The notes under the pieces: model-generated
What the model was told of the DNA's origin: nothing
Databases searched by the model: none
What the model saw: the letters and a program-made list of their open reading frames with translations, nothing else
Assembly: GCF_023704175.1 (NCBI RefSeq)
Contig: NZ_CP084530.1
Span: 1,634,001-1,698,000, forward strand
DNA: 64,000 nucleotides
Direction of reading: 5' to 3'
Source: Paenibacillus sp. YPG26
GTDB taxonomy: Bacteria; Bacillota; Bacilli; Paenibacillales; Paenibacillaceae
Part shown: piece by piece, positions 14,818 to 23,977 of the stretch
How the letters are laid out: each line of letters begins with the position of its first letter
Position numbering within the stretch: the first letter of the stretch is position 1
Translations under genes and position numbers: made by a program

Positions 14818-15783
14818 AGGTTAGAATAGTGCAGCATGATGGCTTGAGAATACTAGTATTAGGCTCTTTGAGTATAGGGTGGAGAGTTACCGAAGGTCTG
14901 GGTCAGAGTAATCAGTTAAACTCGGCGGATTATTCGGATGAAAAGAATCGGAAATTATCGATTTTGTCACAAAAACAACAAAAAAGATGCGTGAAAGTTA
15001 GTCGTAAAGACATTCTTGACCCGGTTTCCAAGGTTAAATGAAAAGTCCAGGGCGGGAAAGTGGCTGTACGGACATTGTCGAATCAGGAAGCAGCATATCG
15101 AATGAGGTAGAAATCAGGAGAGAGGTCCTTGAGAGACTTTGTGGGGGGAAATCAGCTTTTTACAAAAATAAGGAAAAGCGGGAGAGTAATCCTAGGAAAA
15201 AAGGAGGTTTAATTGGGACTTTTTCCCGGGGTACAAGGAAGGGAGTAGTTGGTAAATTATCAAAAGACCCTATATAGGTCTACCTAACCCTTTTTGTAAA
15301 ATGGTAATAATTGAAAAACGTTGATATAGAGCGATTTTCAAGCGTTTCCTGCTAAGACTTTGGTATCAATTCTGTTACCGAATTGGAAAAGGGTGGGATA
15401 ATAACCACAACTTCGATATATCGCTAGCGTTTAATACTACATATAATGAGTCTGAGCCATTGGAGCGGTCAGGGCAAATCCCTATGAGGTGTGACTAGGC
15501 TTGAATTGATAAGGGAACTTCTGGAATCTCGCAACTAAAATAATCACAGTAATTTAGGAGTTTTTGTGTTTGTCCGGGATTAGTAGTTTTTTGTAAGAAA
15601 TGTTATGCAATGTCGTGGAACTTTCATGAAAGTCCCGAAAAAAAATGCTCCCATCCGCCTAGTTACTTTATGAGTTCTCTTGGTTAATCATTAAGGAGTG
15701 ACAAAGGGAGTGGAGGTGTGAGAGCCTTACTATGGAAATCGCCTGCATACAAAAAAATAGCGAGGTGAAGGGATTTTATAGCG
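14818..15783. other. Non-coding stretch of about 970 bp before the exopolysaccharide cluster
   Basis: No convincing gene is present. Frames at 14745-15041 and 15038-15277 lack good ribosome binding sites and have unconstrained composition. The DNA is poorer in GC and richer in purines on + than its flanks. It holds a TATAAT at 15442-15447, a hairpin AGACC/GGTCT near 15263-15281, and a near-palindrome around 15617-15636 followed by A residues, which is not a + strand terminator. A long 5' leader for the downstream operon is possible. No known riboswitch was recognised. Confidence 0.6.
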
Positions 15784-18003
15784 ATGTCAAAACTAGCGCG
15801 CAAACGAATAATTTTATGGATTACGATTGGAATCATTTTAATCGGAGGGGTAACCTCCCTGGTATTCTTGTATCTTCCTCCGTCCCACACAAGCTACGCT
15901 ACCTCGGACGGAACGAAAATGAAGTTCCAAACCTCGGGAGATAAGTTCCTGAGATACGATGGACAAGGAAATTGGAAAGAGATCTTTGTTAAAGGTGTCA
16001 ATCTAGGAGCAACGGTACCGGGCCATTTTCCCGGCGAGTTCCCGGCAACAGAAGAGGACTATCTAAGATGGTTCCAGCAGATCCATGATATGGGTGCGAA
16101 TGTAATTCGGGTATATACGATTCATAATCCTGTATTTTATACGTCATTAGTCAAGTTCAACCGGGATAAGGGAGAGAATCCTCTGTATTTCATTCAGGGA
16201 GTCTACTCGCAGGAAGAACAATTGATTGAATCAAAAGATGCTTACGGCGGAGGAATTCCCAAAGCCTTCGAGCAGGATATTGATAAGGTAGTTAGTGCGG
16301 TGTACGGGGATTTGGACATACCTGTCAATCCCGGCTTTGCAGGGGGCAAGTACACAACCAACGCAGGCGCTTACCTGATGGCCTGGCATATTGGAACCGA
16401 GTGGGATCCCGAAATGGTGGAGAACACGAACAAGGTTCATGCTGGACAGGCCCCTTATAAGGGCAAACATTTCAGTGCGACAGATAATGCCAGTCCGTTC
16501 GAAAGCTTCCTGGCGAGTATGCTGGATCGCGCAGCAGCCAAAGAGCAGACTTACGGCTGGGAGCATCCTGTAACTTTTACCAACTGGGTAACCACAGATG
16601 TGCTTGAGCATCCAGGAGAGCCTTTATTCCAAGAGGATCTAGTTAGTGTGGATGCTACACATGTGAAGCCAGTGAAATGGGAAGCTGGTTATTTTGCGGC
16701 ATACCACGTGTATCCTTATTATCCTGATTTATTCCACCTGGATAAGTCGCTGCAGACCATTTCTGACGGCAAGGGTGGCTATAACACTTACAAAGCTTAT
16801 TTACGGAAGCTTAAGGCCTATTACAAGGATATGCCGATCATGGTTACAGAGTACGGTGTTCCTTCATCTCTGGGTGTATCCCACTTGGGTCCGGGAGGAC
16901 GCAACCAAGGAGGCCACAATGATAAGGAGCAGGGCGAGATTAACGCCTCACTCACTCAGGATATCTACGATGAAGGATATTCAGGAGCGATTCTGTTCAT
17001 GTGGCAGGATGAGTGGTTCAAGAAGACATGGAATACCATGCGTTTTGAAATACCGGCCGATCGACGTTCTTATTGGCTTAACGTTCTAACCAACGAGAAA
17101 CAGTTCGGTATCGTGGCTATGGGACCAGGCAAGTCAGACAAGATCATCATTGATGGCAAGCTGGATGATTGGAACACACTGCCGAAGGACCAGGTGACCG
17201 TGTGGGACAAAACTGCACCAGGCATTAGCAAAATGAGGGTTACTCATGATGAGGCTTATGTCTATGTCGGGCTTGACCTTGAGAAAGATTTCGACCCTAA
17301 GAAGTCTCTAATGTATCTGGGTACCGATACGCAGCCAGGCGGTGATCAGCCGAAGAATGAGCTGCCAAACAAAACACTCAGCGATGGTCTTGAGAATCTC
17401 GTGGTCATCGGTAACGATAAGGAGACTCAAGTCAAGGTTGCTCCATCGTATAATTTCCATCAAAGATTGTATGGGGAACGCGGGTATTGGATGCTTCCAG
17501 AGCAGAAAGCGGCAGATAAAGTTAACTTCCAACCATGGAAGCTGGCGGTCAGCTTGACCATGACTCCACCGGATACGCGTTCAGCCCATCCTTTCCAGGA
17601 TGAGACGGTTGGGATCTTGAAGAGGGGCACTTCGAATCGAAGCAGTGCGGAGTTTGACTCACTGACTTCATGGCAGTACAGCGGTAAGCAGGTAGAGCTT
17701 CGTATACCTTGGATGCTTCTTGGATTTGCGGATCCTAGTTCTCAGCAGGTCATTGATTATGGTCCACTCAAGAAGGGACGCACGTTCTCAACTTTAAAAA
17801 CAGCGGGGATTACATTGGTGCCATGGATTGTGGATCGCGGAACCAAGCAGGTGTCCTGGCCGGGTGGAAATGAGAGTAAGCTTGACCTTAAAGATCAGCC
17901 AATCTACAAGTGGAATCCGTGGGAGACTGTGGAGTATACAGAACACCTCAAATCAGGTTATTACAACATGAAGGATGTCTACTCAAAAATGAATAAGCAG
18001 TAA
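15784..18003 (+). CDS. Membrane-anchored glycosidase-like protein with C-terminal CBM9-like domain
   Basis: A 739-residue protein with one N-terminal membrane segment (about 9-31, after MSKLARKR) and the rest outside. Residues about 45-435 look like a clan-A TIM-barrel hydrolase: VKGVNLGATVPG, GANVIRVYTIHNP, Glu206 in WHIGTEW as acid/base candidate and Glu356 in VTEYG as nucleophile candidate, 150 residues apart as in that clan. Residues about 450-600 start IIIDGKLDDWNTL, typical of CBM9-like beta-sandwiches. As first gene of a polysaccharide synthase cluster it probably trims or remodels the secreted glycan. Family number and substrate cannot be assigned. ATG 15784 follows GCGAGGTGAAGGG. Confidence 0.75.
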   Translation: MSKLARKRIILWITIGIILIGGVTSLVFLYLPPSHTSYATSDGTKMKFQTSGDKFLRYDGQGNWKEIFVKGVNLGATVPGHFPGEFPATEEDYLRWFQQIHDMGANVIRVYTIHNPVFYTSLVKFNRDKGENPLYFIQGVYSQEEQLIESKDAYGGGIPKAFEQDIDKVVSAVYGDLDIPVNPGFAGGKYTTNAGAYLMAWHIGTEWDPEMVENTNKVHAGQAPYKGKHFSATDNASPFESFLASMLDRAAAKEQTYGWEHPVTFTNWVTTDVLEHPGEPLFQEDLVSVDATHVKPVKWEAGYFAAYHVYPYYPDLFHLDKSLQTISDGKGGYNTYKAYLRKLKAYYKDMPIMVTEYGVPSSLGVSHLGPGGRNQGGHNDKEQGEINASLTQDIYDEGYSGAILFMWQDEWFKKTWNTMRFEIPADRRSYWLNVLTNEKQFGIVAMGPGKSDKIIIDGKLDDWNTLPKDQVTVWDKTAPGISKMRVTHDEAYVYVGLDLEKDFDPKKSLMYLGTDTQPGGDQPKNELPNKTLSDGLENLVVIGNDKETQVKVAPSYNFHQRLYGERGYWMLPEQKAADKVNFQPWKLAVSLTMTPPDTRSAHPFQDETVGILKRGTSNRSSAEFDSLTSWQYSGKQVELRIPWMLLGFADPSSQQVIDYGPLKKGRTFSTLKTAGITLVPWIVDRGTKQVSWPGGNESKLDLKDQPIYKWNPWETVEYTEHLKSGYYNMKDVYSKMNKQ

Positions 18004-18044
18004 GTACAGTAAATACGAACTCACAGAGGAGGTCTCATTGCATT

Positions 18045-19238
18045 ATGTTTCAACATGTCACCGTGGCTATCTATTTCGTCTATGCGTGCCTCGGATTGAT
18101 TGGACTCGGAATTGCAATCCTATTCTATATGAAGCTCAAACATCTGGCGACGCTTAAGAAAACGGAAGAGTACCAGCTTAAGCATCAGGATTATTTCAGG
18201 TTTATCCAATCCCATTTACATGAAGACAGCGATCTTCCAGTGCCGCCGGGCAAGCTCACGGCCTTGGAGAGAAGAGTGATTCAGGACAAGTTCGCAGAAT
18301 GGATTGAACAGTTCAAGGGAGAACTTCGTAACAGAATCGTTGAACTGTGCGAGAAATCGGGCTTTGTAAAAGATGAGCTTGAGCAGCTGGACAGCCTGTT
18401 CTACGGGCGCCGGGTAGAAGCAGCTTACCGACTGGGTAACATGCGGGCCGCAGAAGCGGTTCCCCGCCTGCTTCAAATGCTGAGAAAGCAAAGCTACAGT
18501 CCGCTTACCATTATTCTTGGACGGGCGATCGCCAAGAGTGCGAAGCAGGAAGATCAGCTGAAGGAAATGCTTGAACTCATGCTCAGACACGGCAAGCCCA
18601 TTCACAATCTGGTGGCGGATGTGCTGCTGGAGACAGATCTTGATTCCAGCAAGCTGCTTCTCAAGCTGCTTGAGGATGGAAATACGGATTTCGTGAAAGT
18701 TGCCTTAGTAGCTATGTGGGGACAAGCAGTGCCTGAAGTTATTCCGGCTCTCGACCGACTAGTTGGAGCAGAAGAGAAGGATGTACGGGCTGAAGCCGTT
18801 AAGCTCTACCTCAGTTCTAATCCGGTTCTCAAGGATGAGACAATCAAGCAGCTTATGTCGGATAACAACTGGGAGATCCGTGCAGCCATCGCCAAGTCAC
18901 TAGGTTCGCTTCATGCAGCGGGAAGCATTCCTCTTCTCAGAAATGCGATGAGAGATGAGAACTGGTGGGTACGTAACAACAGCGCCGAAAGCCTAGCTAA
19001 GCTTGGTGAGACAGGCTTTGAGATCTTGTGCGAGACAGCGCTTCGTGGTTCAGGTGTAGAGCGGGAGACAGCTCTATATCACATTGAGAAAGTTATGAAT
19101 GAAGGAACTGATCTTCGTGCTGTCGATCAAATGGTATCCTTCAATAAAAAACGTCTGCTCTATGACCGGTATTTCGGCGTTGCCGAAAGAAAACCAGTCC
19201 GTCAAGTAGCAGCAGTTGGGGGGGATTACTCTGCTTAG
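18045..19238 (+). CDS. Membrane-anchored HEAT-repeat protein
   Basis: A 397-residue protein with one N-terminal membrane segment (about 8-29, YFVYACLGLIGLGIAILFYM), a charged region, and a C-terminal array of HEAT-like helical repeats from about residue 125. The repeats include EAAYRLGNMRAAEAVPRLL, VRAEAVKLYL, WEIRAAIAKSLGSLHAAGS and WWVRNNSAESLAKLG. Such repeats are protein-binding scaffolds. Between a glycosidase and the synthase, and overlapping the synthase gene by 23 nt or less, it is a candidate assembly or regulatory subunit of the synthase. That role is inferred from position. Confidence 0.75.
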   Translation: MFQHVTVAIYFVYACLGLIGLGIAILFYMKLKHLATLKKTEEYQLKHQDYFRFIQSHLHEDSDLPVPPGKLTALERRVIQDKFAEWIEQFKGELRNRIVELCEKSGFVKDELEQLDSLFYGRRVEAAYRLGNMRAAEAVPRLLQMLRKQSYSPLTIILGRAIAKSAKQEDQLKEMLELMLRHGKPIHNLVADVLLETDLDSSKLLLKLLEDGNTDFVKVALVAMWGQAVPEVIPALDRLVGAEEKDVRAEAVKLYLSSNPVLKDETIKQLMSDNNWEIRAAIAKSLGSLHAAGSIPLLRNAMRDENWWVRNNSAESLAKLGETGFEILCETALRGSGVERETALYHIEKVMNEGTDLRAVDQMVSFNKKRLLYDRYFGVAERKPVRQVAAVGGDYSA

Positions 19239-20664
19239 GGATATACTTCTCATCTATGGCTTGTTCGCCATTTATTATGTAATGACGGTTAACACTCTGT
19301 ATTTCGCAGTGCTGGCTTTCTCATTCAAGAATATTATGATGATATTCCGCAGATCGGCGTACTCGAAATATAATACGCTGTCGGGTTCAGAGCTGGTACC
19401 GCCGGTATCACTGCTCGTGCCTGCTTATAATGAGGAAGTCACCGTTATCGAGAACGTTAAGTGTCTACTGACACTGAATTACCCGAACTATGAAGTTATC
19501 GTCATTAATGACGGTTCGAAAGATAACACACTGGGCGTCCTGGTGGATGAATTCGGTCTGGAGAAAATCCCGAATCCTGACATGAGAAACTCGATTGACT
19601 GTCAGGCGATTAACGGGGTCTATCACAATCCTCAGTATCCACATCTGTATGTAATAGATAAGCCGAACGGGGGTAAGGCAGATTCACTGAATGCAGGTAT
19701 TAATCTGTCACATTACCCGCTTATCTCTTCTATTGATGCGGACTCACTGCTGGAGAAAGACGCACTGATCCGTATGGCAAGGCAGTATATGGAAAACCCT
19801 GAGGAAACCGTTGCAATTGGTGGAGATGTTCGTATCGCCAATGGCTGTCTGATCGAGAATGGTCAGGTTAAGGACTTCTCCCTGCCTAACAAAATGTGGC
19901 CAATGTTCCAGGCGATAGAGTACTTGAAAGCCTTCCTCGGAGGCCGGATCGGCTGGAGTTCAATCAATGGACTTATCATCGTATCAGGTGCTTTCGGCTT
20001 GTTCCGTAAGGATTATGTCATTGCCGTGGGGGGTTACCGTGGAGGTTACCCGGGTGAAGACATGAACATTATCATCAAGCTTCACCGCTACATGCTGGAG
20101 AATAAGCTGAAATACCGGATTGCATTCTGTCCAGAGGCAGTGTGCTGGACTCAAGCACCGGACACCTACCATATTCTCTCTAACCAGCGTAAGCGCTGGG
20201 GGCGCGGTAACTTGAAGAACATGATCGAGAACTATGACATGGCCTTCAATCCGAAATATAAGGTTATGGGACTTCTAACCATGCCTTACAACATTATTTT
20301 TGAAGCATTGAACCCTTATTTCAAAATTACAGGTTTAGTGGCTCTAGTCGGTTATGTAGCTCTCGATATGACCCAGTGGAAGATTCTGCTGGTATTCGGA
20401 CTGATCAACTTCCTAAGTGGATACTTGTTCAGCATCGGCGCACTGCTGCTGGAAGAGCTTGCGTTCAAGCGGTTCATCAAAATATCTGATTTGCTCAAAA
20501 TGTTGTTTTATGGAGCATTCAAATTCTTCGGTTATTCCCAACTGGGTACGCTCTGGCGTATTCAAGGACATATACAGTATCTGCAGAACAACAATTCATG
20601 GGGAGCTATGACAAGGCAGAGCTGGAAAGAAGAAAAAACTGAGGCCCCAAGCAGTGCAGCATAA
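19216..20664 (+). CDS. Processive membrane glycosyltransferase, GT2 family (polysaccharide synthase)
   Basis: A 482-residue inverting synthase of the BcsA/HasA/PgaC type. Residues about 8-35 are membrane-embedded. The cytosolic GT-A domain has LLVPAYNEE, INDGSKDNT (Asp99), IDADS (D174-A-D176, metal and sugar nucleotide), PGED (E281-D282 region, catalytic base) and QRKRW (Q324-W328, acceptor binding). This D, DxD, D, QxxRW set marks processive enzymes. Three or four membrane helices follow (about 355-455). No PilZ domain is present. The start is ambiguous: TTG 19216 has no ribosome binding site, while GGGGGGG at 19218-19224 would serve a CTG at 19231. Confidence 0.9.
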   Translation: MGGITLLRDILLIYGLFAIYYVMTVNTLYFAVLAFSFKNIMMIFRRSAYSKYNTLSGSELVPPVSLLVPAYNEEVTVIENVKCLLTLNYPNYEVIVINDGSKDNTLGVLVDEFGLEKIPNPDMRNSIDCQAINGVYHNPQYPHLYVIDKPNGGKADSLNAGINLSHYPLISSIDADSLLEKDALIRMARQYMENPEETVAIGGDVRIANGCLIENGQVKDFSLPNKMWPMFQAIEYLKAFLGGRIGWSSINGLIIVSGAFGLFRKDYVIAVGGYRGGYPGEDMNIIIKLHRYMLENKLKYRIAFCPEAVCWTQAPDTYHILSNQRKRWGRGNLKNMIENYDMAFNPKYKVMGLLTMPYNIIFEALNPYFKITGLVALVGYVALDMTQWKILLVFGLINFLSGYLFSIGALLLEELAFKRFIKISDLLKMLFYGAFKFFGYSQLGTLWRIQGHIQYLQNNNSWGAMTRQSWKEEKTEAPSSAA

Positions 20665-20748
20665 ATGATGCTTCCCCACCCAGGGAAGGAAGTGATGCTT
20701 ACAGACGATCAACTAAAATTCAAACTAATCTGAAAGGTGGGAATTGAA

Positions 20749-21555
20749 ATGCCCAATTCGGCAACGCTCCAAAGGGGTATTCAAGAGAACTTATACCAGC
20801 ACATCGAGGAATGGGTGAGAGGAACCAAGCAAGAGGTATGCGGAGTAATATTTCTGTATTCCGAGAACAGTCCTGCCAATTTAGACGCCCAAGTCCGTGG
20901 AATACTGGAAGCTCAGCCTGATCTTTCCTTTGAGGTTTGGAGTGATGACGAGAACAGTACCCTGGCAGTGATTCTGCCGGGACGAACTCTGGATGCTGTG
21001 CATTTTGAAGGGCTGCTGCTCAAGCAGCGGCTTCAGGATAACCAAGCGGATCTGGATCCACGGATCACGTTGGCCAGCTTCCCGGAACAAGGAGAACCTA
21101 CGGAAGCTGTAATGAAGCAAATGGCTGAGTCTGCCAGACGCAGCTTGACCGGAGATATCCATATTTTCACAAAAGAAGAATCAAAGGTTGCCCGCAGCAG
21201 TATTCTGGTTGTGGACAATGATCCGACTATTCGGGAATTTCTACAAATTCGTTTTAAAATGCAGGGTTATGAAACATATGAGGCTAACGATGGTCTCACT
21301 GCTCTGAAATTAATCGAACAGATGAAGCCGGACCTGGTTCTGACTGAACTGAATCTGTATGGAATTGACGGCCTGCCGTACATCCATCATATTCAAAAGC
21401 TGAATGGAAATAAGTCACCGAAGATCGTAGTTTTGACAGAACAGAAGGTAGAACAGACGATTAGTCAATGCTTCCAAAGCGGAGTTGAAGACTACATTAC
21501 CAAGCCGTTCTCGCCGGTAGAGCTTGATGCAAGAATTCGCCGCTGCTTTAACTAG
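20749..21555 (+). CDS. Degenerate GGDEF-like domain fused to a pseudo-receiver domain
   Basis: A 268-residue cytosolic regulator. Residues about 10-140 resemble a worn GGDEF domain: VWSDDENSTLAVILPGRTLD stands where GGDEF and the following strand would be, then ITLASFPEQGE. Catalytic residues are lost. Residues about 150-268 are a CheY-like receiver (ILVVDNDPTIREFL, VVLTEQ, ITKPFS with Lys252), but the phosphoacceptor position is Glu200 in LVLTELNL. Glu there can mimic phospho-Asp, suggesting a locked state. There is no DNA-binding domain. Among polysaccharide genes it may control the synthase by protein contact. ATG 20749 follows AAAGGTGG. Confidence 0.75.
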   Translation: MPNSATLQRGIQENLYQHIEEWVRGTKQEVCGVIFLYSENSPANLDAQVRGILEAQPDLSFEVWSDDENSTLAVILPGRTLDAVHFEGLLLKQRLQDNQADLDPRITLASFPEQGEPTEAVMKQMAESARRSLTGDIHIFTKEESKVARSSILVVDNDPTIREFLQIRFKMQGYETYEANDGLTALKLIEQMKPDLVLTELNLYGIDGLPYIHHIQKLNGNKSPKIVVLTEQKVEQTISQCFQSGVEDYITKPFSPVELDARIRRCFN

Positions 21556-21616
21556 TGATTTTCTAAACCTATTATTCTATTAAACTAATATATAGATAAA
21601 TTGGAGGATGAGAAAT

Positions 21617-22981
21617 GTGAATAAAGAATACCATGACTTATTGGGTGCTATTGAATCGAAGAATGCCGTACTTGGTGTGGTAGGTCTTGGCTATGTAGGC
21701 CTACCGCTCGCCGTAGAGATGGTCAAGCAGGGATTCCATGTCATTGGTATTGATCTGGATATCTCCAAAATTGATAAATTATATCGTGGAGAATCTTATA
21801 TTCACGACATTTCCAATGAGACACTGGGAGAAGCTATCGCTTCTGGAAGGTTCAAGCCGACTGCTGATTACAGCTCCATTCGTCAAATTGACGCAATCAG
21901 CATTTGCGTGCCAACGCCGCTTAGTGAGAACCAAGATCCAGATACTTCCTATATTGTGACTGTAGTGGACGAAATCAAGAAATACATGAAAAAAGGCATT
22001 CTGATCACGTTAGAAAGCACAACCTACCCAGGAACTACAGAAGAGCTCATTCAACACGAGCTTGAAGCTCTTGGCTATAAAGTCGGGGAAGACTTCTTCC
22101 TGTGCTTCTCTCCTGAACGGGTTGATCCATCGAACACACGCTTCAATACATTCAATACACCGAAGGTTATCGGTGGAACTACTGAAGCCTGCCTTAAGCT
22201 TGGCGAAGCACTTTACAGCAAATATGTCCAGACCGTAGTTCCTGTCACTTCTCCGAAAGTGGCTGAGATGTCCAAGCTTCTCGAGAACACATTCCGCAGT
22301 GTTAATATCGCCTTCATTAACGAAATGGCAATGATGTGTGACCGTATGGGTATCGATATTTGGGAAGTAATTGATGCGGCAAAAACAAAACCATTCGGCT
22401 TCATGCCATTCTACCCGGGCCCTGGCATCGGTGGTCACTGCATTCCGCTTGACCCGATGTACCTCTCCTGGAAAGCCAAAGGCTTCCGTTTCTACAGTCA
22501 ATTCATTGAGCTAGCCCAATCTACCAATGACAATATGCCTTACTATGTGGTTAACAAGACTTCGAAAATTCTGAACGAGTATGCTAAATCGGTCAAGAAA
22601 TCGAACATTCTTATTCTCGGTATGGCTTACAAGCCGGACATTGCCGACCTTCGTGAGTCCCCAGGACTTGAAGTATACGAGCTGTTCAAGGACAGCGGCG
22701 CGTATGTAAGCTATTACGATCCGCATGCTACTACCTTCCGTGACAAGGCGGGAAGCACTGTCAGCAGCATTGCTTATGATGTGGAGCAATTCAAGAAATA
22801 TGACTGCATCGTACTTATCACGAATCACAGTGATCTGAACTATAGCGAAATTGCCAGCCTAGGTGTACCTATTCTGGATACAAGAAATGCATTCAAAGGT
22901 TATTCTTATGAGCATGTATACAAGATCGGTCATTCTGTACAACAGGTTGCTGAGAAGGAAGAGCCAGCTCTGATTGTATAA
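21617..22981 (+). CDS. UDP-N-acetylhexosamine 6-dehydrogenase (WbpA/WecC type)
   Basis: A 454-residue NAD-dependent nucleotide-sugar dehydrogenase making a UDP-HexNAc uronic acid by two oxidations. Marks are GVVGLGYVGLPLAVEM (Rossmann fold), STTYPGTTEEL, FCFSPERVDP, PKVAEMSKLLENTFR and the active-site Cys275 in GPGIGGHCIPLDPMYLSWKAK, which is closest to the WbpA group acting on UDP-GlcNAc or a relative rather than UDP-glucose. GTG 21617 is preferred over ATG 21608, which is only 1 nt from GGAGG. It implies that the cluster polymer contains an acidic amino sugar. Confidence 0.9.
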   Translation: MNKEYHDLLGAIESKNAVLGVVGLGYVGLPLAVEMVKQGFHVIGIDLDISKIDKLYRGESYIHDISNETLGEAIASGRFKPTADYSSIRQIDAISICVPTPLSENQDPDTSYIVTVVDEIKKYMKKGILITLESTTYPGTTEELIQHELEALGYKVGEDFFLCFSPERVDPSNTRFNTFNTPKVIGGTTEACLKLGEALYSKYVQTVVPVTSPKVAEMSKLLENTFRSVNIAFINEMAMMCDRMGIDIWEVIDAAKTKPFGFMPFYPGPGIGGHCIPLDPMYLSWKAKGFRFYSQFIELAQSTNDNMPYYVVNKTSKILNEYAKSVKKSNILILGMAYKPDIADLRESPGLEVYELFKDSGAYVSYYDPHATTFRDKAGSTVSSIAYDVEQFKKYDCIVLITNHSDLNYSEIASLGVPILDTRNAFKGYSYEHVYKIGHSVQQVAEKEEPALIV

Positions 22982-23029
22982 ACCGATTATTATTAGATTA
23001 GGAAGGGGGATCAGACGATCAAGTTATTT

Positions 23030-23941
23030 TTGATGAAGAATAAGGGTTATATCTTCGCTCTCTTGGTCATCATCATGGCTTTGGTCGTGCTTATTCCTTA
23101 TCTTAACAAGCAGCCATCGGCACCAGAGACTAAATCCACGTGGCTTTGGGACACGGATTTGATCATTGATCAAGCTGATGATATTGTCAGATTCTCCAAG
23201 GAACAGGGCGTTAAGATTGTTTTTCTGCAAATTGGTGAGAAGGTGGCTGCGGATCAATACCGCAGCTTCATCTCCAAGGCCAAGAAGGAAAAGATTGAGG
23301 TACATGCTCTAAATGGCAGACCTGGATGGGCACTGTATGACAACAAAGAGGAAGCGGATGAATTCCTGAACTGGGTGAAGGACTATAATGCAAGCTCCAA
23401 ACCGGAGGAGCAGTTTGCGGGCGTCCAATTCGATGTGGAACCTTATTTGCTCAAACAGTGGAAGTCCAGTCAGAAGGTTGTGCTTCAGGAATGGATGCGC
23501 AATATGAGATCGTGGAGCGAAAGCGGCAAAGAGGCCGGACTCTCCGTTGGAGCGGCGGTCCCCTTCTGGCTGAACGGGGTGAATAATCCCAATGGTAATG
23601 GCAAGCAGCCGATGAGTGATTGGATGATCGACAGGCTTGATTATCTGGCCATCATGGCCTACCGTGACAAAGCGGATCAAATCTATGAAATTTCTGAACA
23701 TATGCTATCTGAGGCCGACTCACAGGGCAAGAAGATATGGGTTGGAGTCGAGGTTGCGCCGAGCCAAGAGGGTGAAGGGGTATCCTTCTATGCCCAGTCT
23801 GACTCGAAGCTGGATGCGGAGCTGAACAAGCTGGTCAGCATGGGAGATAATCATGTCTCCTTCGCGGGTATCGCTGTTCACAGTTATGAAGCATGGCGTA
23901 CCCGGTTCGATGAGACAAAGACAGCACTCAGAAATGACTAG
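23030..23941 (+). CDS. Membrane-anchored TIM-barrel protein, possible glycosidase
   Basis: A 303-residue protein with an N-terminal membrane anchor or signal segment (IFALLVIIMALVVLIPYL) and an extracellular domain that looks like an alpha/beta barrel. Strand ends KIVFLQIGEK, VHALNGRPGW, FAGVQFDVEPYLL, SVGAAVPFWLNG, YLAIMAYRD and KIWVGVEVAP carry the kind of acidic residues (Asp135, Glu137) seen in GH18-like barrels. No named family is recognised. As last cluster gene it may cut or modify the polymer. The start is unclear: GGAAGGGGGA lies at 23001-23010, 20 nt before TTG 23030 and ATG 23033; an ATC codon at 23018 would have ideal spacing. Confidence 0.7.
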   Translation: MMKNKGYIFALLVIIMALVVLIPYLNKQPSAPETKSTWLWDTDLIIDQADDIVRFSKEQGVKIVFLQIGEKVAADQYRSFISKAKKEKIEVHALNGRPGWALYDNKEEADEFLNWVKDYNASSKPEEQFAGVQFDVEPYLLKQWKSSQKVVLQEWMRNMRSWSESGKEAGLSVGAAVPFWLNGVNNPNGNGKQPMSDWMIDRLDYLAIMAYRDKADQIYEISEHMLSEADSQGKKIWVGVEVAPSQEGEGVSFYAQSDSKLDAELNKLVSMGDNHVSFAGIAVHSYEAWRTRFDETKTALRND

Positions 23942-23950
23942 TGAAGAGAA

Positions 23951-23977
23951 GGCAGCCTTAAGGGCTGCCTCTTTTTT
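23951..23977 (+). terminator. Terminator of the exopolysaccharide cluster
   Basis: The GGCAGCC/GGCTGCC stem with a TTAA-containing loop is followed by CTTTTTT. It closes the 15784-23941 unit. Confidence 0.88.

Follow-up and report, generated by a model that had tools for sequence, protein, structure and literature searches.

The six genes at positions 15784-23941 of the window, the 64,000-nucleotide stretch of Paenibacillus sp. YPG26 DNA analyzed here, most likely build and export a sugar polymer. They probably constitute a synthase-dependent exopolysaccharide machine whose class is characterized by three components: a signaling-type regulator, a HEAT-repeat protein and a processive glycosyltransferase of family 2 (GT2). 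This estimate, which is somewhat better than even, covers the whole mechanism described below. The polymer-machine type with a HEAT protein and a signaling-type regulator seems to be widespread.

The operon (genes A to F) is real and lies within a genome of 3.97 Mb assembled into a single contig. All six genes occupy the plus strand and are separated by short gaps, and in the list of open reading frames genes B and C overlap. The last gene is followed by an intrinsic terminator-like stem-loop with a T-run (23950-23970, plus strand), which has the most pairs among the terminator-like sites listed, while such sites overall occur at the chance level (8 found against 7.1 expected). The original prediction of six tightly spaced genes in one direction ending in a terminator thus describes the layout correctly. 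Approximately 120 bp upstream of gene A, a conserved promoter-proximal element, CTYCCATNNGCCTAGTTAC, is located at 15648-15666 of the plus strand. In 49 of 81 loci, gene A is preceded by the core GCCTAGTTAC with at most one mismatch, and the long pattern has one exact site in the genome. The element is possibly a −35 or operator region. A regulon under its control was also considered, but at up to three mismatches the genome contains 10 matches, fewer than the 22 of the reversed control, which gives no basis for postulating one. Another conserved block, GACTTTGGTATCAATTCTGTTACC, is found at 15356-15379, around 430 bp before gene A, and recurs with up to three mismatches in 18 of 81 loci. Neither a riboswitch nor any other Rfam RNA was detected between 14700 and 24300 up to an E-value of 1.

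The linkage of the first five genes is far beyond chance. A GT2 scan of species genomes yielded 134 relatives, the best 80 of which were kept; as these loci were picked by GT2 similarity, they are no gauge of cluster frequency. They come from Paenibacillus, Fontibacillus, Cohnella, Brevibacillus, a Paenibacillaceae bin, and records labelled Neobacillus and Anoxybacillus, and the closest among these best 80 is the locus of Paenibacillus zeisoli, with 96% GT2 identity. In all 80, genes A to E are kept in the same order and on one strand. The joint co-occurrence that had been proposed as a check of the cluster is therefore found for A to E. In 69 of the 80, E is directly followed by gene F in the same orientation; in the other 11 (L078-L088, from Cohnella, Brevibacillus and the Anoxybacillus record), relatives of F are placed on the opposite strand or about 1.1-4.4 kb further on the same one. 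Among 148 genomes of the family, some match to the HEAT protein occurs in 63, with 42 below 1e-40 among the matches listed.

The center of the operon is gene C (19216-20664, 482 aa), a GT2 polysaccharide synthase of the processive type according to its Pfam assignment, its catalytic motifs and its clade. The QRKRW/QRRRW motif is present in 75 of 81 family members, and the GEDMN and DADS motifs in all 81, which bears out the earlier assignment as a processive enzyme. The closest NCBIfam model is that of the poly-beta-1,6-GlcNAc synthase PgaC/IcaA (TIGR03937), yet the score of 141 bits is far below the cut-off of 422, and no polysaccharide deacetylase was matched in Pfam among the six proteins. 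The second-best model, the XrtG-associated GT2 (TIGR03111), gives 110 bits against a cut-off of 364. The features of the cellulose synthase BcsA/BcsB are likewise missing from the six proteins: Pfam detects no PilZ domain, the two PilZ places of the genome lying elsewhere, and no family of a BcsB-like subunit at E ≤ 1. The absence of both had already been remarked on for this cluster. YdaN, encoded in the ydaJKLMN operon of Bacillus subtilis, is BcsB-like.

Immediately before the synthase, gene B (18045-19238, 397 aa) encodes a HEAT-repeat protein (Pfam HEAT_2, 1.2e-20) with an N-terminal hydrophobic segment, in agreement with its previous description as a membrane HEAT protein. Of the genome's 10 GT2 places and 4 loci with a HEAT_2 match, only the pair of the operon is adjacent. 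In the Paenibacillus barengoltzii/timonensis group (L020-L024, L026), the HEAT protein reaches just 321-339 bits despite a close GT2, and in six similar genomes the match covers only residues 3 to approximately 245 of this protein.

The association of HEAT and GT2 extends well beyond the family. A GT2 profile search of 398 genomes of the phylum, limited to the four best candidates of each genome, gave 33 matches distributed over 31 genomes; 29 of the matches are strong (at least 555 bits). Of these strong loci, 28 were examined, 24 as fetched sequence and four by coordinates (G000, G006, G025 and G038), that is, all but G296. In every one of the 28, the window included, a HEAT gene is located directly upstream of the GT2 gene or is fused to it. 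Fusions of HEAT and GT2 occur in L155 (HEAT 41-300, GT2 480-949) and L204, and a glycosidase is fused to HEAT in L158 (11-711 and 742-1082). The three fusions and five further HEAT proteins exceed the Pfam cut-off for HEAT_2. In ten loci, namely L207 and nine of the strong ones (L155, L195 and L198-L204), the HEAT protein gives a weak profile match (17-67 bits); the Pfam test, applied to six of the ten (L155, L195, L199, L203, L204 and L207), was passed by each of these. The four weaker GT2 matches were read except for the second one of G038: L207 has a HEAT gene, whereas L205 and L206 have none. In a tree of 38 GT2s, the HEAT-linked enzymes group together with a support of 0.98, with L205, whose GT2 is spread over two frames, branching inside their clade; two other GT2s of the window's genome, L149, L150 and L206 fall outside it. 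Close relatives matched by GT2 only, among the best 120 of 7999, include species of Thermoanaerobacter, Caloramator, Thermoanaerobacterium and Clostridium.

HEAT repeats generally serve for docking, and gene B matches no catalytic family in Pfam. Such a protein could be a mere chaperone or membrane-placement factor that shares the operon by chance and exerts no control over synthesis. This explanation is very improbable: it is at odds with the adjacency or fusion seen in all 28 strong loci examined and with the single open reading frames that join HEAT to a GT2 or a glycosidase. The fusions appear to be the best evidence that the HEAT protein acts directly with the synthase.

A gene for a receiver and/or GGDEF protein stands in the same run in 21 of the 24 fetched loci. 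In 20 of these, it shares the strand and is at most 2.5 kb away; the remaining one is L158, with a GGDEF gene ahead of the fused frame. Three loci (L157, L163 and L192) have no adjacent regulator. These counts were made without a chance control, and receiver and GGDEF genes are common, with 19 GGDEF matches in the genome of the window alone. The combined GGDEF-receiver architecture is found beside HEAT and GT2 in L155, L196, L198 and L204, and with an AGDEF motif in L161. The glycosidase of the gene A type is encoded no more than 3 kb away in the same orientation, or is fused to HEAT, in 8 of the 24 loci, and is divergent in L155. No dehydrogenase gene occurs on the same strand within 6 kb in any of the 24 distant loci, some stretches of which end sooner, and in L157 one lies on the opposite strand. 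Given HEAT beside or fused to GT2 in 28 of 28 loci and a regulator in 21 of 24, the core of the class is regulator, HEAT and GT2, with the glycosidase as a frequent companion and the dehydrogenase and last gene as additions of particular lineages. This corrects the original prediction, in which the HEAT and pseudo-receiver partners were the oddity of the cluster; they are part of a core conserved across a wider GT2 clade of the phylum, and it is the dehydrogenase that is the local addition.

Several regulators of these loci carry further domains. In L204 (12170-14194), the regulator next to the HEAT-GT2 fusion has a domain of the ODP/metallo-beta-lactamase type before its GGDEF-receiver part, and is perhaps an oxygen sensor. 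In L155 (11415-13634), the corresponding protein has a C-terminal DivIVA domain, a hint that it may be positioned at the pole or septum of the cell. A different subtype is present in L198, from the same family as the window: a weak Hpt domain, two receivers and a GGDEF domain without the motif adjoin HEAT and GT2, and the 19 kb fetched contain no match to glycosidase A or the dehydrogenase.

In the operon of the window, the regulator is the product of gene D (20737-21555, 272 aa), which has no hydrophobic segment and carries a receiver domain (Pfam Response_reg, 6e-25). As receivers filled the list of the fold search, the N-terminal half was assigned by profile comparison, in which hhalign scored the GGDEF family at 31.1, against a maximum of 16.4 in 20 column shuffles. 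Both domains are degenerate. The GGDEF active-site motif is present in 0 of 81 family members, and the RxxD motif of the I-site, sought at residues 48-76, in 4 of 81, with none in this stretch of the window protein. In the receiver, the second acidic residue of the metal site is replaced by N, G, H, Q, Y or S in all 81, and the phosphorylation position is occupied by Glu in 72 and Asp in 9. Gene D therefore has neither the motif of a diguanylate cyclase nor the acidic metal pair and phospho-Asp of a phosphorylatable receiver, and the profile comparison and residue counts together confirm the GGDEF-like and pseudo-receiver domains proposed for it. Since both signaling domains are degenerate in the family of the window, gene D may serve as a structural or protein-docking switch.

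Among the known systems closest to the operon are ydaJKLMN of Bacillus subtilis and pssA-E of Listeria, which, in the available portions of their descriptions, also combine a degenerate GGDEF protein with a GT2 synthase in Gram-positive bacteria; ydaJKLMN shares the glycosidase as well. The cluster could then be a divergent system of this type, with the degenerate GGDEF domain sensing c-di-GMP and turning on a PNAG-like GT2. The common occurrence of glycosidase, degenerate GGDEF protein and GT2 in one operon and the 19 GGDEF matches, which indicate plentiful c-di-GMP-type enzymes, are consistent with such a scheme. According to the same partial sources, however, ydaJKLMN and pss employ a c-di-GMP receptor with an I-site, through which YdaK and PssE work, and pss includes a BcsB ortholog; the present operon instead has a HEAT protein, a receiver and no I-site motif, no BcsB-like match among its six proteins, and a regulator that lacks a hydrophobic segment. 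We regard this relationship as rather improbable. The earlier choice of ydaJKLMN as the nearest analogy holds for a GGDEF-type regulator encoded with a GT2, and fails for an intact I-site. A degenerate GGDEF regulator and a hydrolase are also described for the Gram-positive Pel operon (pelDEADAFG), where, as far as the accessible text goes, PelD keeps the I-site and binds c-di-GMP. Pfam and NCBIfam scans detected no Pel-type family among the six proteins.

Two glycosidase-like proteins frame the operon. Gene A (15784-18003, 739 aa) encodes a putative membrane-anchored protein with an N-terminal hydrophobic segment, for which the structure model predicts a TIM-barrel glycosidase fold and a beta-rich C-terminal part (pLDDT below 50 at 78-85, 270-287, 365-374 and 409-418). 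The TEWDP motif is conserved in 80 of 81 members and TE(Y/F)G in all 81. Assignment to a named glycosidase family was tried, and the top rows, GH157, GH5 and GH2, lie within about one Z unit (24.5, 23.7 and 23.6), so close that no family was given; GH113 appears as one weak match among 10 relatives. The search for a solved relative by sequence or profile gave none, as did the comparison with PHROGs. In Pfam, the window protein matches no family at E ≤ 1, and gene A may therefore represent a new glycosidase family. The membrane glycosidase foreseen for gene A is consistent with the modelled fold; the CBM9-like domain assigned to it is not matched in Pfam at E ≤ 1, and residues 454-513 give a sub-threshold NCBIfam match of 24 bits against a cut-off of 50. 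Relatives of gene A were found in 23 of the 398 phylum genomes by a profile search in which the best two candidates per genome were scored, and some of their loci also carry HEAT and GT2 genes. In 10 loci (L149, L150, L151, L154, L159, L160 and L164-L167), the gene has neither an adjoining HEAT gene nor a GT2 of the clade, so the substrate of gene A need not be the polymer of the operon. In L031 and L048, gene A is interrupted, its parts lying in two or three frames, by pseudogene formation or sequencing error.

At the other end, gene F (23030-23941, 303 aa) encodes a second putative membrane-anchored glycosidase, with a hydrophobic segment at residues 7-25. No family was above the cut-off in the Pfam and NCBIfam scans. 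Its profile matches one solved putative glycosidase, 10yv (2.3e-28), and D135 and E137 are invariant across 17 aligned rows.

The chemistry of the polymer can be approached through gene E (21608-22981, 457 aa), a nucleotide-sugar 6-dehydrogenase (TIGR03026, 438 bits against a cut-off of 190) with the GGHC motif in 81 of 81 members. All subtype models remain below their cut-offs; the best are those of UDP-ManNAc (270 and 252 bits) and TviB (205), and the UDP-glucose models AglM and TuaD give 161 (cut-off 670) and 152 bits (cut-off 700). The best solved relative is Cap5O. From these similarities, we infer a substrate of the UDP-HexNAc type, and an acidic amino-sugar polymer is a plausible product. 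Because the genome has three matches to the UDP-HexNAc 2-epimerase family, both ManNAcA and GlcNAcA are possible. Processive GT2s are combined with nucleotide-sugar dehydrogenases in the streptococcal hasAB and pneumococcal type 3 loci. The present operon differs from these in a dehydrogenase that is HexNAc-like and falls short of the UDP-glucose models, and in the additional HEAT protein, regulator and glycosidases.

A UDP-HexNAc-like dehydrogenase would also suit a polymer bound to the cell wall, similar to teichuronic acid or a secondary cell-wall polymer, rather than a secreted exopolysaccharide, with HEAT and regulator coupling synthesis to wall growth. The GT2 identity of 67-96% over several genera in the 80 loci, judged unusual for free exopolysaccharide loci, and the DivIVA domain of the L155 regulator point in the same direction. 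Yet Pfam and NCBIfam show none of the enzymes for lipid-linked initiation or for attachment among the six proteins, nor a flippase, and the GT2 carries the motifs of a processive synthase. The wall-bound polymer is thus considered unlikely.

In the preferred reading, a secreted polymer made by a HEAT-linked synthase, gene C would polymerize the sugar chain from UDP-sugars and move it through the membrane. The HEAT protein, probably anchored on the cytoplasmic side of the membrane, would dock on the synthase as a co-subunit and take the place held elsewhere by parts of the PilZ/BcsB type. Gene D may form a GGDEF-receiver platform on this HEAT scaffold, inform B and C of the cell's state, and set the activity or assembly of the synthase. 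Gene E would supply the uronic UDP-HexNAc building block, while A, and F in Paenibacillus, may act outside the membrane to trim or remodel the chain. Judged by sequence, the regulators of several relatives seem to have kept the capacity for phosphorylation or for c-di-GMP synthesis. A broader proposal, put forward tentatively and with less than even confidence, is an undescribed Bacillota-wide class of processive GT2s gated through a HEAT adaptor by a receiver/GGDEF regulator, in which two-component phosphorylation would act directly on polymer synthesis in some lineages, and the Paenibacillaceae regulator would be a double pseudo-signaling domain for docking only.

The system seems to be undescribed: no description of a HEAT-GT2 locus was found in the literature searched, of which only part was available and whose coverage leaves most subscription journals outside, and a published pipeline for synthase-dependent operons never uses the term HEAT in its main text. 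In view of this coverage, the HEAT-linked machine is placed within the synthase-dependent kind and not called categorically new. Gram-positive exopolysaccharide machines are poorly catalogued, and the conserved combination of regulator, HEAT protein and GT2, with its natural HEAT-GT2 and glycosidase-HEAT fusions, would extend the range of partners known for such synthases. Whether receivers, and not c-di-GMP alone, can control polymer synthesis through contact between proteins could be tested directly in such a class, which would also point to a probable locus for a matrix polymer in many Paenibacillaceae and other Bacillota.
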